Shown: one piece after another, positions 27,023 through 33,028 of the stretch
Position numbering within the stretch: position 1 is the stretch's first letter
How the letters are laid out: each line of letters begins with the position of its first letter
Source of the DNA: Pelagibacteraceae bacterium AG-464-B04
GTDB taxonomy: Bacteria; Pseudomonadota; Alphaproteobacteria; Pelagibacterales; Pelagibacteraceae
Assembly: GCA_003209225.1 (NCBI GenBank)
Contig: QCRZ01000010.1
Location: forward strand, 1 to 34,035
DNA: 34,035 bases
Reading direction: 5' to 3'
Translations under genes and position numbers: made by a program
Notes under the pieces: model-generated
What the model was told of the DNA's origin: nothing
Seen by the model: only the letters and a program-made list of their open reading frames with translations
The model's database searches: none

Positions 27023-28741
27023 ATGAATTTAGATCAATTTAATAGCTTAGTAGACTTATTTTTTTATCAAGCAAAAAAACAAAATCCAAAAGGAATTTTT
27101 TTAGAATGGTTAAACCAAAGTGGCAGAAGATCATTTACTTGGGAAGATACTGTTTTAAATATTTACAAATTATCTAAAACTTTAAAACAATATTTAAATG
27201 CTGGAGATAGATGTCTATTAGTTTCTGAAAATAGACCTGAATGGCTTATTTCAGATTTGGCAATAATGTTAGCGAATGGAATTACTGTGCCCGCATATAC
27301 TACCTATGCAGAAAATGATTACAAATATTTAATTGATGATTGTAAGCCGTCTGTAATTATACTTTCAAATAACAAAATGCATAAAAAGATAGAGCAAATT
27401 ATAAAAAATAATAATTTTGTTAAAAAGATAATAACTTTTGATGAAATAGATAACATAAAATATCAAAATAAATATTTGAATTTAAATTCAATAATTAAAA
27501 ATAAATTATTAGAAACCGACATAATAAATAATTTAAATTTAAAAAGAACTTCACCTGCTTGTATAATATATACGTCAGGGACTGGTGGTGATCCTAAAGG
27601 AGTCGTGTTAAGTCATGGTGGTATATTAAGCAATTGTCAAGGTGCCTGTGAATTATTAAAACCTTTGTTAAATAAAAAAACAATTTTTTTGACGTGGCTT
27701 CCTTTGTCACATTCTTACGAACATACAGTTCAATTTGTACAGATAGCGATTGGAGCAAAAATATTTTATGCCGAAAAAATAGAAAAACTTTTAGACAATA
27801 TTTCAGAAGCTAAGCCAACAATAATGACTGCAGTGCCAAGATTTTATCAAAATCTTTATAATAAAATAAATATAAATATGAAAAAACAAACAGGATTAAA
27901 AGCTAAATTAATCCACTTTACAATTTTGTTAGGCAAAAAAAAACTTTTAGGTTTAAAAATGAGCTTCAATGAAAAACTCATAAATTTTGTTGTAAATATT
28001 TTAGTCAGAAAAAAAATAAAAAAACAGTTTGGTGGAAACTTAAAAGCTTTTGTTTCAGGGGGAGGTGCTTTAGATAAAGAAATAGGTGAGTTTTTAAATG
28101 CCATTGGATTACCTACTTTGCAAGGCTACGGTTTAACAGAAGCCTCACCTGTGGTTAGCTGCAATCCTTTTGATAAAATAATTGTTGAAACTGTAGGTCC
28201 ACCCTTTAAAGGTAACAAAATAAGAATAGCGCATGATGGTGAAATTTTAGTTAAAGGCGAAAATGTTATGTTGGGTTATTGGAACAAACAGGAAGATACA
28301 AATAAAGCTATTAAAGATGGATGGTTATACACAGGTGATATTGGAGAAATAAATCCCGAAAATGGATATTTAAAAATTACGGATAGAAAAAAAGATATAA
28401 TAGTCACTGCGGGTGGTGATAATATTTCTCCAGCTAAAATTGAAAATATTATTTCAAATTTTTCTGAAATCGATCAATGTATGGTGTATGGAGATAGAAA
28501 AAATTATTTAGTAGCAATTATAGTTCCTAATAAGGAAATTAAAGAACAAAAAGAGGTAATTGATGAAGTTTTAAACAAAGTTAATAAAGGCCTAACACAG
28601 GTTGAAAAAATAAAAAAATATTATTTAGTAAAAGAAAGTTTTTCAATTGAAAATGGTTTGCTAACACCAACAATGAAAATTAAAAGAAATAAAATAACAG
28701 AAAAATATAAAAATATTTTAGAAAGTTTCTATAAAAATTAA
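27023..28741 (+). CDS. AMP-dependent synthetase, long-chain acyl-CoA ligase
   Basis: The 572-residue adenylate-forming enzyme has the P-loop-like YTSGTGGDPKGVVLSHGG, the LQGYGLTEASPVVSCNP motif, GWLYTGDIG and the DRKKDIIVTAGGDNISP hinge, with a C-terminal lysine in TPTMKIKRNKI. It activates fatty acids as acyl-AMP then acyl-CoA at the membrane. FadD-like long-chain activity is inferred from subfamily resemblance (WLPLSHSYEHTVQF). Transcription probably starts near 26923 from a strong promoter. No partner gene for beta-oxidation is nearby. Confidence 0.9.
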   Translation: MNLDQFNSLVDLFFYQAKKQNPKGIFLEWLNQSGRRSFTWEDTVLNIYKLSKTLKQYLNAGDRCLLVSENRPEWLISDLAIMLANGITVPAYTTYAENDYKYLIDDCKPSVIILSNNKMHKKIEQIIKNNNFVKKIITFDEIDNIKYQNKYLNLNSIIKNKLLETDIINNLNLKRTSPACIIYTSGTGGDPKGVVLSHGGILSNCQGACELLKPLLNKKTIFLTWLPLSHSYEHTVQFVQIAIGAKIFYAEKIEKLLDNISEAKPTIMTAVPRFYQNLYNKININMKKQTGLKAKLIHFTILLGKKKLLGLKMSFNEKLINFVVNILVRKKIKKQFGGNLKAFVSGGGALDKEIGEFLNAIGLPTLQGYGLTEASPVVSCNPFDKIIVETVGPPFKGNKIRIAHDGEILVKGENVMLGYWNKQEDTNKAIKDGWLYTGDIGEINPENGYLKITDRKKDIIVTAGGDNISPAKIENIISNFSEIDQCMVYGDRKNYLVAIIVPNKEIKEQKEVIDEVLNKVNKGLTQVEKIKKYYLVKESFSIENGLLTPTMKIKRNKITEKYKNILESFYKN

Positions 28742-28961
28742 ATATTACAATTTCAATTAATAATTTAATTTATTCCACTATACAAAAAGCATTGTTATTA
28801 CTTGTTTATTTTTATCATTAAATAAAAAATTATTTTTTAAATTTTTTATTTTTTTAAATTTTTTTAATAAGAATTTATGTTTGACATAAGTAAAAAAAAA
28901 CATAAGAGTAGAAATATAAAACGAATCACGCTGATTCGTAATTAAATAAAGGGAGTTTAAG
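28742..28961 (+). promoter_or_regulatory. Leader region of the basic peptide gene: TTGACA box and hairpin
   Basis: No gene is seen in these 220 bases. TTGACA at 28881-28886 is a perfect -35; no good -10 lies at 16-18 bases (28903-28908 is TAAGAG). Just after it, ACGAATCA (28921-28928) and TGATTCGT (28932-28939) form a perfect 8-bp stem with a CGC loop, probably near the 5' end of the transcript. GGGAG at 28951-28955 is a good ribosome site for the ATG at 28962. Confidence 0.55.
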
Positions 28962-29027
28962 ATGGCTAAAAGAAGAAAAGCTAAGAAAAAAGGAAAAAAG
29001 AAAGCTAAGAAAAGAAGAAGAAGATAA
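28962..29027 (+). CDS. 21-residue Lys/Arg-rich peptide
   Basis: The frame starts MAKRRKAKKKGKKK and ends in four arginines before TAA. Of 21 residues, 16 are Lys or Arg; the rest are Met, three Ala and Gly. It has a GGGAG ribosome site 6 bases upstream, a structured leader and a perfect terminator 17 bases after the stop, so it looks like a real, independently transcribed unit. I recognise no named family. The composition suggests nucleic-acid (histone-tail-like or ribosome) binding. It could also be the visible part of a small RNA. Confidence 0.7.
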   Translation: MAKRRKAKKKGKKKAKKRRRR

Positions 29028-29043
29028 AAAAAGTTTTCTTTTA

Positions 29044-29082
29044 ATACGCTCCTTACCAATCCTTGATAGGGAGCGTATTATT
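29044..29082 (+). terminator. Bidirectional intrinsic terminator between the basic peptide gene and carD
   Basis: TAATACGCTCC (29044-29054) pairs with GGAGCGTATTA (29072-29082), a perfect 11-bp stem with a 17-base loop. T-rich sequence follows on the + strand and A/T-rich on the other, so it can serve both convergent transcripts. The carD stop is 4 bases away. Confidence 0.85.
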
Positions 29083-29085
29083 TAA

Positions 29086-29766
29086 TTATTCTTCCTGATG
29101 TTGATTTCTTTTAAGAGCTTTATCAAGTTTTTTTTGGGTTTGTTCGGCTGTAGCTCCAAGCACTATTTGAAATTCAGTTAAAATTCTATCATAGGCTTTC
29201 TCAAGTAATTGTCTTTCACTGTAAGATTGATCAACTAGTATGTCATTGCCTTTATTTAAGTCTCTAACTACCTCGGCCAAATCATAAATTTTTCCTGAAA
29301 CTATCTTTTGTTCATATTCTTGCGCTCTTCTGCTCCACATTGTTCTTTTTATTTTAGGTTTTCCTCTTAAGATACTCATAGCTTTATTAACTTGGTTTAT
29401 ACTTGATAGAGGTCTTAGGTGAGATTGTTTGTTAACAGGAAGCAATCCTATTGCTTTATCCTTTTCAAATTTTATGTCATAACATTGAACTTCTATTCCT
29501 CCAATAGTTTTTGATCCTACTGATAAAATTTGTCCTACGCCATGTTTTGGGTAAACGATATGGTCTTTTATTTTAAAAATTTTCTTTTCTGTAGCCTGCT
29601 TTTTTATTTTTATTATCTCAACTTTTTGATCATTACTTTTTGGAATTCTATGAATATTTTCTTGAACAATTTTATTTTTTTTTGTTTGTCTAGTTTTAGA
29701 TTTTTTTTTAGAAATTTTTTTTTTTAATTTTACTTTTTTTCTTTTTTTTATTTTTTTTTTAGGCAT
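29086..29766 (-). CDS. carD: CarD-family transcription regulator with lysine-rich N-terminal tail
   Basis: 226 residues. The CarD domain starts at about residue 64 (FKIKDHIVYPKHGVGQIL), followed by the RNA polymerase-binding Tudor-like region (VQCYDIKFEKDKAIGLLPV) and the C-terminal helical DNA-contacting domain (MWSRRAQEYEQKIVSG, LLEKAYDRILTEFQIV). CarD stabilises promoter open complexes. The first ~30 residues contain 17 Lys and 2 Arg, a basic tail absent from most CarD proteins. Some SAR11-like genomes may share it, which I cannot check. The ATG is one base beyond the ferredoxin stop. A later start would leave a normal CarD, so the tail deserves confirmation. Confidence 0.9.
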   Translation of the reverse strand: MPKKKIKKRKKVKLKKKISKKKSKTRQTKKNKIVQENIHRIPKSNDQKVEIIKIKKQATEKKIFKIKDHIVYPKHGVGQILSVGSKTIGGIEVQCYDIKFEKDKAIGLLPVNKQSHLRPLSSINQVNKAMSILRGKPKIKRTMWSRRAQEYEQKIVSGKIYDLAEVVRDLNKGNDILVDQSYSERQLLEKAYDRILTEFQIVLGATAEQTQKKLDKALKRNQHQEE

Positions 29767-29767
29767 A

Positions 29768-30103
29768 TTAATTATTTTCTAAATTTTCTTTAAAATATTT
29801 ATCATATTTATTTTTTTCATTTCTAAAATTATCAGCATCAATCGGAGGATCCTTTTTTTTGTTTATATTTGGCCAAATTTCAGAATACTTTGTATTAATT
29901 TCTAACCATTTTTCCAAACCTTTTTCAGTATCTGGTTTGATTGCATCAACCGGACATTCGGGTTCGCAAACGCCACAATCTATACACTCATCAGGTTTAA
30001 TTACAAGCATATTTTTGCCTTCATAAAAGCAATCTACCGGACAAACTTCAACACAATCCATTAACTTACATTTTATACACTCATCTTTAACAATATATGT
30101 CAT
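29768..30103 (-). CDS. fdxA: 7Fe-ferredoxin (FdxA type)
   Basis: The 111-residue ferredoxin has [17 protein letters not shown] with the spacing of a 3Fe-4S plus 4Fe-4S (7Fe) cluster protein and a second motif [16 protein letters not shown]. The C-terminal extension [15 protein letters not shown] is typical of FdxA/FdII. It is a low-potential electron carrier. Its ATG overlaps the stop of the TerB-like gene by one base (TAATG). Helicase-ferredoxin-carD neighbourhoods are common in Alphaproteobacteria, although a functional link is not understood. Confidence 0.93.
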
Positions 30104-30507
30104 TATAATTTTTTATTGATAACTGATTGCCTAATATCACCAGCTTCTTTATCGCTTACATAAAACAACCCGTTTAGTCTTCTCATTAAATTGGATTCAT
30201 ACATATCAGAAACATCATCTGAATATATTATCTTCCACAAAATTTCAAGAATTTTAAGTCTAAAATTTTTTTCAGAATTTTTTACTTCCCTTGTAAATTC
30301 TAAAATTTGATTGGATTGACTTTCTTTTTCTTCTGCCTCTTTAAGGATTATTTTATTATCACTTTCTTTATTGTCTGTCATTTCAGCTAAAGCTTTTAAT
30401 ATAATTAATTTTTCTTTATCAGTATAGTTTTCGTCCATTTTTGCAGCATGTACAAATAAGGCACACACAAGAACAAGCTTTTCTTTATCGTATTTAGATT
30501 TAGTCAT
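30103..30507 (-). CDS. TerB-like helical protein
   Basis: The 134-residue, all-helical, acidic protein resembles the TerB/DUF533-like family: [29 protein letters not shown] at the N-terminus and [34 protein letters not shown] at the C-terminus, each containing a D-rich metal-binding-type turn. No catalytic residues are evident. TerB homologues are annotated for tellurite resistance, but most stand-alone copies have unknown roles. It sits between the helicase and fdxA with a 25-base gap upstream and a one-base overlap downstream. Confidence 0.7.
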
Positions 30508-30532
30508 TTTTTAAATATTTATTATTATAATT

Positions 30533-33028
30533 TTAATTAAAATTTACATTAGTAAGAACGTCAAAGGGGCTATCCTTTTTTTTATCTTCTCTAATTATTT
30601 TTTTTTTATGATCCACTTTAACCGGGCTATATCTAAAATAAATTTCATTTTTGTTTTTCATTTTTTCTATTTTATAATCCATAAGTCTAAGTAATTTCAA
30701 AAAATTATCTTTATTACAACCAAGCAAATTGACCATGTCAGAGTCTAATTTTATCTTATTTTCAACCCTTTTTTCTATAATTTTAACAAATAATCTTTCT
30801 AAAATATCAATCCTAACAAAAAAGTTTTTAAATTTTTCAAAGCCACAAATCAACATAAATTTTTGGTCCAAGTCTTTTTTTGAATCTAAAAAGTTTAGAC
30901 CAAATTTTGGTGGGTCTAATTTTAAATTATTTCTAAAAAAGTTTTTCCACAAAAGTACTCTTGTTGTAACAGCGCTAGGTTTAAATATTCTGTGCAAAAA
31001 AATATGATATCTTCCAATTTTAATTCCTTTATTTCTTAAAGTTTTTCTATCTTCTTGGTTTAGATTTTTTATAAATTCTTTAACTGAATCTCTTTTTAAA
31101 ACCCCATTATTTTCAAATAACTGATAACATAACGCTCTTACATAGTTGTTTTTTTGTTTAAATTTATTCAGGTTTACTAAGTCTTTTAATTCAAGGTTTA
31201 TAAATTTTAATATCCAATCATTAAGGAATGATATTAGCTTATTTCTTGAATTATCATCTAATATATCATCTGTAATTAGATTTACATTTGGTTCTAAATA
31301 ATTTTTTCCTGGCATAATTTGAGCAATGGCATTTTCCAACCAATATATCTTAAAATCTTCATTTAATTTTAAACTTTTATCTTTTATAATAAGATTGACT
31401 CTTTTTTCTAATTCTGGACCAATGCCTTGTCGGGCAGCTTTTTTCAAAGATTTGATGTCGGTATCAAGTGCCCCTGTTTTAAAATCTAAGTTTAGTTTTA
31501 GTCCTTTTAGCTCTCCTATAAAGTGTCCATCAATAATAACTTCTCTTTCATTTTTAATTTTTGTTTCCAGAATAGCGTCTTGTTTAAGACCTCTAGCCAA
31601 TACACTTGCTCTTTTATCAATAAAACTTTTTGATAATTCCTCATGGAGTCTTTCAGACAATTTGTCTTCTAATGTCTTTGTTCTTTCTAACCAATAATCT
31701 TGGTTTTGTATCCAATTTCTTTTATTTGCGACATAAGCCCATGTTCTAACATTAGATATTCTATTGGCTAAAGTGTCTACATTTCCAGCGAGCACATCTA
31801 AGTTTTTTATTTGTTCACGCATATATATATTTGGAACTCTTTTTTCACCCGAAGTTAGAAATTTAAAAACTTTACTTACTACATCAAGATGGTGACCATA
31901 GGTATGTTTAACAAAATCAGGGATTTGACAACAATCCCAAAGAGTTTCTAAAATGTATTTTTCATTAGCAATACTTAATTTTGAATTATTTTTTAAAAAA
32001 TATTTTAATATTTTTTCATCTTCGCAATCGTTTATTCTTCTCAAAAAATTTTCATTAGGTCTTTCATCTAAAGAATTAATTAATTTTTCAAAGCTTCTAA
32101 AATCTAAATTTGAATTTCTCCAAAAAATTTTTTGTATTGATTCCAATTTATGATTTTCAACTAATTCAACTTCCTCAGAAGTTAAATTTTCACAATCTCC
32201 CGTAATACCAAAATTTCCATCATTAATATGGCGTCCAGCCCTTCCTGCAATTTGGGATATTTCAGCTAAATTTAAACGCCTAAGTTTCTTTCCATCAAAT
32301 TTTTTTAAGCTAGTAAAATAAACATCGTTAATATCCATATTGATACCCATTCCAATGGCATCAGTAGCTACCAAATAATCTACATCTCCAGACTCATATA
32401 ACCTAACCTGAGAATTTCTTGTTTTTGGGCTTAATGTGCCCATTACTATTGCAGCACCTCCCTTTTGTCTTCTAACCAGCTCTGCGATTGCATATATTTC
32501 TTCAATTGAAAAAGCTATAATTGCTGTTTTTCTTTGCAACCTAGATATTTTTTTTTGTCCACTATAAGTAAGTTTTGAAAACCTTTCTTTACTTATAAAT
32601 TCCACATCTTCTTTAAGAGATCCAATTATATTTTTCATGGTATGAGATCCTAAAAACATAGTTAATTTTTCACCTCTCAAATTTAATAAACGATCTGTAA
32701 ATATATGTCCTCTTTCATGGTCCGCACACATTTGAATTTCGTCCACACCAACAAATTCTACATTTTTATCTATAGGCATAGATTCAACAGTGCATAAAAA
32801 ATATTTTGCATTCATGGGTATAATTTTTTCCTCCCCAGTTATAAGAGCAACTTTTGCTGGATTAACTCTTTTCAAAATTTTTTCGTAAACTTCTCTTGCT
32901 AATAATCTTAGTGGGAATCCTAAAATGCCACTTTCAAAATTTAGCATTGTTTCTATTGCCATGTGGGTCTTCCCTGTATTTGTGGGACCAAGAACTGCAG
33001 TAATTTTTGAATTATTGTTCAGATGCAT
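30533..33028 (-). CDS. SUV3-type (mgpS-like) DExH-box RNA/DNA helicase
   Basis: 831 residues. Walker A is GPTNTGKT (14-21) and Walker B DEIQ (96-99). The helicase C-terminal domain has MGTLSPKTRN, YLVATDAIGMGINMDI and QIAGRAGR. This is the SUV3/mitochondrial-degradosome-like architecture found in alphaproteobacterial mgpS-type helicases, with a long C-terminal extension of about 450 residues that I do not recognise in detail. Likely unwinds RNA in decay or ribosome-related processes (inference). First gene of a minus-strand run ending in carD. Start MHLNNNSKITAVLGPTNTGKT puts Walker A at the usual distance. Confidence 0.9.
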   Translation of the reverse strand: MHLNNNSKITAVLGPTNTGKTHMAIETMLNFESGILGFPLRLLAREVYEKILKRVNPAKVALITGEEKIIPMNAKYFLCTVESMPIDKNVEFVGVDEIQMCADHERGHIFTDRLLNLRGEKLTMFLGSHTMKNIIGSLKEDVEFISKERFSKLTYSGQKKISRLQRKTAIIAFSIEEIYAIAELVRRQKGGAAIVMGTLSPKTRNSQVRLYESGDVDYLVATDAIGMGINMDINDVYFTSLKKFDGKKLRRLNLAEISQIAGRAGRHINDGNFGITGDCENLTSEEVELVENHKLESIQKIFWRNSNLDFRSFEKLINSLDERPNENFLRRINDCEDEKILKYFLKNNSKLSIANEKYILETLWDCCQIPDFVKHTYGHHLDVVSKVFKFLTSGEKRVPNIYMREQIKNLDVLAGNVDTLANRISNVRTWAYVANKRNWIQNQDYWLERTKTLEDKLSERLHEELSKSFIDKRASVLARGLKQDAILETKIKNEREVIIDGHFIGELKGLKLNLDFKTGALDTDIKSLKKAARQGIGPELEKRVNLIIKDKSLKLNEDFKIYWLENAIAQIMPGKNYLEPNVNLITDDILDDNSRNKLISFLNDWILKFINLELKDLVNLNKFKQKNNYVRALCYQLFENNGVLKRDSVKEFIKNLNQEDRKTLRNKGIKIGRYHIFLHRIFKPSAVTTRVLLWKNFFRNNLKLDPPKFGLNFLDSKKDLDQKFMLICGFEKFKNFFVRIDILERLFVKIIEKRVENKIKLDSDMVNLLGCNKDNFLKLLRLMDYKIEKMKNKNEIYFRYSPVKVDHKKKIIREDKKKDSPFDVLTNVNFN

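Follow-up and report, generated by a model that had tools for sequence, protein, structure and literature searches.

The window, as we call the whole 34,035-nucleotide stretch of Pelagibacteraceae bacterium AG-464-B04 DNA analyzed here, carries a very short open reading frame (ORF) between an acyl-CoA-synthetase-type gene and carD. The upstream neighbor, which encodes an AMP-binding enzyme (positions 27023 to 28741, plus strand; Pfam PF00501, 1.8e-64), points in the same direction as the peptide gene and ends 139 nt 5′ of a TTGACA sequence (28881 to 28886, plus strand) that resembles a −35 box; a neighbor of the AMP-binding type can also be read at the relative locus L006. An earlier note had described this box together with a leader hairpin of 8 bp with a 3-base loop, a GGGAG ribosome-binding site, and an ORF of 21 residues, 16 of them Lys or Arg, and direct reading bore out all of these elements on the plus strand. 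The hairpin, ACGAATCA-CGC-TGATTCGT, occupies 28921 to 28939 and was recovered by inverted-repeat search and folding, the Shine-Dalgarno (SD) sequence lies at 28951 to 28955, and the 21-codon ORF, MAKRRKAKKKGKKKAKKRRRR, runs from the ATG at 28962 through the TAA at 29025 to 29027. Between the convergent stop codons, an inverted repeat (29042 to 29080, assigned to neither strand) whose 11-bp core pairs perfectly is a candidate bidirectional terminator shared with carD (29086 to 29766, minus strand; CarD_TRCF_RID, PF02559, 4e-10; CarD_C, PF21095, 3e-19). The minus-strand block from 29086 to 33028 comprises carD and the genes for a ferredoxin (DUF3470), a TerB-like protein, and a Suv3-type helicase. 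CarD has a long Lys-rich N-terminal tail in SAR11 (seen in the window and also at L040:1904-2728). In the window CarD, Lys and Arg make up 45% of the first 55 residues, and an H1-like Ala/Lys-rich stretch is found at the CarD N-terminal position in at least one carD locus elsewhere in Alphaproteobacteria (L130). A link between this tail and the neighboring peptide gene is no more than a possibility.

The encoded peptide has a net charge of about +16 and is distinguished by its Lys/Arg richness only, with no Pro and no clear repeat. Among ATG-initiated ORFs of 15 to 100 aa in the 34-kb window, it alone reaches at least 50% Lys/Arg. First-order Markov sequences of the window's composition contained 0.05 such ORFs per window at this threshold, and none were seen in 60 trials at a threshold of at least 70%. 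Independently of the Markov estimate, conservation among relatives settles, on sequence evidence alone, that the ORF is not a product of chance. A second genome match to the region (G000:C39, L002) was ruled out as a paralog, being low-complexity coding-type DNA.

In the search for relatives, carD served as the anchor, which avoids a similarity search with a low-complexity peptide. One set of 30 loci came from the window's own genome and its relatives, and 80 further named loci, titled Pelagibacteraceae, Candidatus Pelagibacter, or Pelagibacterales, were taken from a CarD alignment led by the window CarD. An intact short Lys/Arg ORF convergent to carD was found in 29 of the 30 loci of the first set, in one case with a GTG start. 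The remaining locus (L006; G003:C5, about 2210 to 2300), which belongs to the same genus, also has the complete unit, but its peptide ORF is broken by a one-base frameshift in an A-run; this copy comes from a metagenome-assembled genome, and an assembly error cannot be distinguished from real loss. The gene is present in 79 of the 80 named loci, and the contig of the 80th ends inside it. Together with L047, these make up 109 intact Pelagibacteraceae loci, among which 80 coding sequences and 57 peptides are distinct; the peptides have 20 to 50 aa, and most loci encode 20 to 27 aa. In a sister family, all 10 loci that are not truncated by the end of a contig carry TTGACA, CGAATCA, an SD sequence, and an ORF of 40 to 91 aa beside carD, and carD is convergent to the peptide gene in all loci. 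A strict start pattern was matched in 93 of 148 family genomes, never twice in one genome, while a reversed-pattern control gave no match; the figure is a lower bound, because true genes with other codons escape the pattern. No viral contig matched the start pattern, and a class-wide carD search in Alphaproteobacteria, in which 30 loci were read, 1 of them from Pelagibacteraceae, revealed no comparable downstream gene in the others. As far as sampled, and as judged from these alignments, the peptide gene at the carD locus is thus a trait of the order Pelagibacterales; the adjacency of the gene to carD may merely result from low rearrangement in these genomes.

Several patterns bear on whether the ORF is a protein gene. 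Relatives were compared as 30 nearest pairs without overlap. Of the 106 changes between pair members, 50 were synonymous, where a simple model of mutation predicts 24% (p=1.5e-7), and the window differs from L005 at four bases, all of them synonymous. The 2027 residues of the 80 distinct Pelagibacteraceae ORFs include no Asp or Glu, but in the two alternative frames this purine-rich DNA would encode 360 and 285 Glu. Length differences among the ORFs are whole codons, with the exception of L006. Taken together, the synonymous excess, the acid-free frame, and the whole-codon indels identify a true protein gene. The comparison of relatives demonstrates, at the level of substitution patterns, purifying selection for an unbroken, acid-free string of Lys and Arg, in which codon choice drifts, Lys and Arg are swapped among relatives, and Lys exceeds Arg 2.5 to 1 across the Pelagibacteraceae peptides. 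The earlier note had named the lack of a conserved reading frame, or of a synonymous pattern among relatives, as grounds for refutation; that test was run, and the gene withstood it. These same features, along with the conserved SD sequence and start codon, leave hardly any room for a small noncoding RNA in which the ORF is incidental, for which the strong predicted RNA structure could be invoked. An equally negligible chance is given to transcription attenuation with the ORF as a leader peptide of Lys/Arg codons. Although a short ORF rich in one codon class with a terminator-like hairpin close behind would be expected of such a device, no codirectional gene follows, carD being convergent throughout, and neither the drifting codon choice with its Lys/Arg swaps nor sister-family ORFs of up to 91 codons fit it.

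The signals around the ORF are conserved along with it. Among the Pelagibacteraceae loci that extend as far as the box, 107 in all, 102 have TTGACA and 5 have TTGACT; TTGACA also occurs in 10 of 10 sister-family loci and is invariant in alignment A2. The distance from the box to CGAATC is 39 to 42 nt in 106 of the 107 loci, and from this nearly fixed spacing it is inferred that transcription starts a few bases 5′ of the hairpin. The promoter half of the proposed "self-contained transcription unit" was only partly upheld: the TTGACA is there, but a simple sigma-70 scan of the window paired it with no −10 element, and the sequence 17 nt 3′ of it is unlike TATAAT. The SD sequence is GGGAG in 105 and GGAG in 3 of the 109 Pelagibacteraceae loci. 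Similarly, the "perfect 11-bp terminator" holds as an inverted repeat and is weaker than described as a terminator in the window copy. Its arms, TAATACGCTCC and GGAGCGTATTA, form a perfect 11-bp core (29042 to 29052 and 29070 to 29080) within 18-nt arms that are 89% complementary, but they are directly followed by TTTAATTATT instead of a clean U-run, which is why a terminator scan made no call there. Most relatives have a T run at the corresponding position, and a script search found a hairpin with a T-rich tail downstream of the ORF in 106 of 109 Pelagibacteraceae loci. With the promoter box, hairpin, SD sequence, frame, and inverted repeat conserved across the order, and with the synonymous pattern described above, the claim of a functional microgene in its own transcription unit is supported, in the absence of any expression data.

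RNA from 28905 to 29085 folds with a z of −4.7, and the leader region has a mean folding z of −6.0 against mononucleotide shuffles, compared with −0.5 for a control segment. CGAATCA is present in 109 of 109 Pelagibacteraceae loci. In the main group of this family the arms are CGAATC and GATTCG around a loop of variable length; the 3′ arm reads GATTCG in 61 cases and GATTTG, which allows a G-U pair, in 10, and the outer stem pair is A-T in 48, G-T in 15, G-C in 5, and mismatched in 3. A second group of genera has a shifted stem (e.g., TCACTTAA/TTAAGTGA), where a second helix can involve the SD sequence, and the sister-family stem is GAATCA/TGATTC. Even where the pairing partner shifts, CGAATCA is invariant. 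A reading of the palindrome as a DNA operator was considered and set aside, RNA being favored by the variable loop length and the G-U-compatible changes in the 3′ arm; this argument has its limit in that pairing alone leaves the invariance of CGAATCA at shifted stems unexplained. Among 60 family genomes the hairpin motif occurs at a single place in each matching genome, except for one genome with one additional copy (CGAATCA...GATTTG at G027:C1:3412-3432, away from the carD locus). With roughly one copy in each genome, linked to the peptide gene, we interpret the hairpin as a leader element of the peptide mRNA and not as a regulon signal. The "dual-function small RNA" suggested earlier gains no positive support from such a distribution. 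Stem-loops in 5′ UTRs are known to protect mRNAs against decay (PMC7509114), and by analogy the simplest role for the hairpin would be mRNA protection.

In some Pelagibacteraceae genera, a second predicted helix, in which CTCC pairs with GGAG, covers or adjoins the SD sequence (z of −3.7 in one example). An anti-SD sequence of the CTCC type that could pair with the SD region was noted at L017, L019, L025, L026, L028, L032, L033, and L047, and perhaps in the sister family (L034 to L045). The predicted pairing suggests translational control by an anti-SD in several genera, perhaps also in the sister family, and is lacking in the window lineage, where no SD helix is found. It could be imagined that the peptide acts mainly on RNA, its own leader included, binding the CGAATCA hairpin and, where present, the SD-hiding helix in a translational feedback loop. 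The near-exclusive association of the hairpin with the peptide locus, the constancy of CGAATCA under a shifting partner, the CTCC-GGAG helix, and the precedent of chlamydial Hc2, which binds RNA and represses translation (PMC2848022), are in line with such feedback. We nevertheless regard it as improbable, since the SD helix is missing from the window lineage, two sister-family leaders fold nonsignificantly (z of −1.3 and −0.9), and there are no binding data.

Sister-family proteins (e.g., MEELKVIFAKARKKAKKKAAPKKKRKAAKRKPAKKK...) carry H1-like AAPKKK/KPAKKK repeats after a short N terminus of the MEELKVIFA type, and Lys/Ala/Pro-rich, acid-free repeats are shared by the sister family (apart from acidic residues in the N-terminal MEELK/MEDLK) and the longer Pelagibacteraceae members. 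In a tree built from carD, the two families are split from each other at full support; when it is midpoint rooted, the deepest Pelagibacteraceae branch has peptides of 29 to 37 residues and the window lineage peptides of 20 to 22, although the long-to-short direction of change rests on this rooting. Set against the longer sister-family proteins, no more than 20 to 24 residues are left in the lineage of the window. Given the H1-like sister-family versions, the most plausible reading of the 21-mer is a minimal nucleic acid binder of the H1-tail or protamine type, the binding of DNA or RNA being itself an inference. No family was found in Pfam at E≤1 for three longer members or at E≤0.001 for the 21-mer, and in NCBIfam the 21-mer and two longer members were likewise without a family at E≤1; in the absence of a profile match, the H1 comparison depends on composition and repeats, which converge easily. 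At the Rfam gathering score only a single tRNA was found in the window, with weak, chance-level matches at the peptide locus. A Pelagibacter ubique screen of intergenic regions longer than 100 bp with at least 26% GC names none as flanking carD (PMC2704228), and our searches of the open-access literature found no description of such a peptide. Going by sequence, we rate the gene as H1-like in its composition and longer relatives, and as unusual in its size, its near universality in the order, and its dedicated expression unit.

We put at about even the chance that this true protein-coding gene, conserved in the sampled Pelagibacterales (SAR11), specifies a minimal histone-H1-like (protamine-like) polycation. 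Transcription would start just 5′ of the hairpin, so that the mRNA begins with a stem-loop, which would slow decay and favor high output. The presumably disordered peptide of about +16 would bind DNA, and probably RNA too, through the phosphate backbone without base specificity, and would help to neutralize and compact the nucleoid alongside HU. On this economical view, an H1-like polycation would have been reduced to its charge, neutralizing and bridging nucleic acid, and its length would drift because selection acts on charge and not on a fold.

The earlier suggestion of "nucleoid or ribosome binding" was a sound guess, and the H1-like sister versions favor the nucleoid side, with binding again inferred. 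The main rival is a ribosome-associated microprotein: the peptide would bind rRNA, either as a very small ribosomal protein or as a helper in assembly. The ribosomal proteins eL41 and bTHX are likewise stand-alone, very basic, and about 25 residues long, and a widespread, single-copy gene with a strong SD sequence and a stable-looking leader would suit a housekeeping part of translation; the basic composition is equally compatible with RNA or ribosome binding. We consider a ribosomal role unlikely, though by no means dismissible: no PDB chain matched the window 21-mer at E≤10 and the sister-family version gave only a chance-level match (E of 0.52), a range of 20 to 91 aa with repeat expansion is unlike a fixed binding site, in contrast to eL41 and bTHX the peptide is highly variable in length, and no ribosomal-protein genes are neighbors.

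Since it is apparently universal among free-living cells whose genomes are some of the most streamlined, the peptide gene is unlikely to be dispensable. Gene finders would miss 21 codons, no family library searched names the peptide, and trypsin proteomics would overlook it, as 16 Lys/Arg in 21 residues leave fragments too small to detect. It is tempting to assume, with rather less than even confidence, that SAR11, whose cells are some of the most numerous in the ocean, depend on a universally kept polycation of about 20 to 27 residues. It would rank with the smallest known bacterial proteins that pack chromosomes (or bind ribosomes) on their own, and would be made from a dedicated hairpin-led mRNA and systematically missed by gene callers and tryptic proteomics. 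If DNA packing proves true, the peptide would help to explain chromosome handling in very small cells and would provide biophysics with a natural minimal H1 tail; if ribosome binding does, a new component of the ribosome would have been found. The locus, with lengths from 20 to 91 residues, is a natural experiment on the minimum length of a functional polycation.

Among known systems, protamines are likewise short, low-complexity polycations dominated by arginine and lysine; they differ in that Lys outnumbers Arg here, and we know of no bacterial relationship for them. Hc2 (HctB) of Chlamydia and Hc2-like proteins such as BpH1 share with the present peptides Lys/Arg/Ala repeats, length variation through repeat number, and an acid-free basic tail (PMC2848022). 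Chlamydia Hc2, however, has 165 to 237 aa, versus 20 to 27 in most loci here and 40 to 91 in the sister family, lies at an unrelated locus, and shares no profile match. The KPAA-repeat tails of AlgP and PhaF from Pseudomonas also resemble H1 tails in composition, as do the peptides described here, and are reported to bind DNA and to be undercounted in trypsin proteomics (PMC9239181). AlgP is a protein of 352 aa that joins an N-terminal helical domain to 154 aa of KPAA repeats, whereas the Pelagibacterales gene encodes the basic tail alone.
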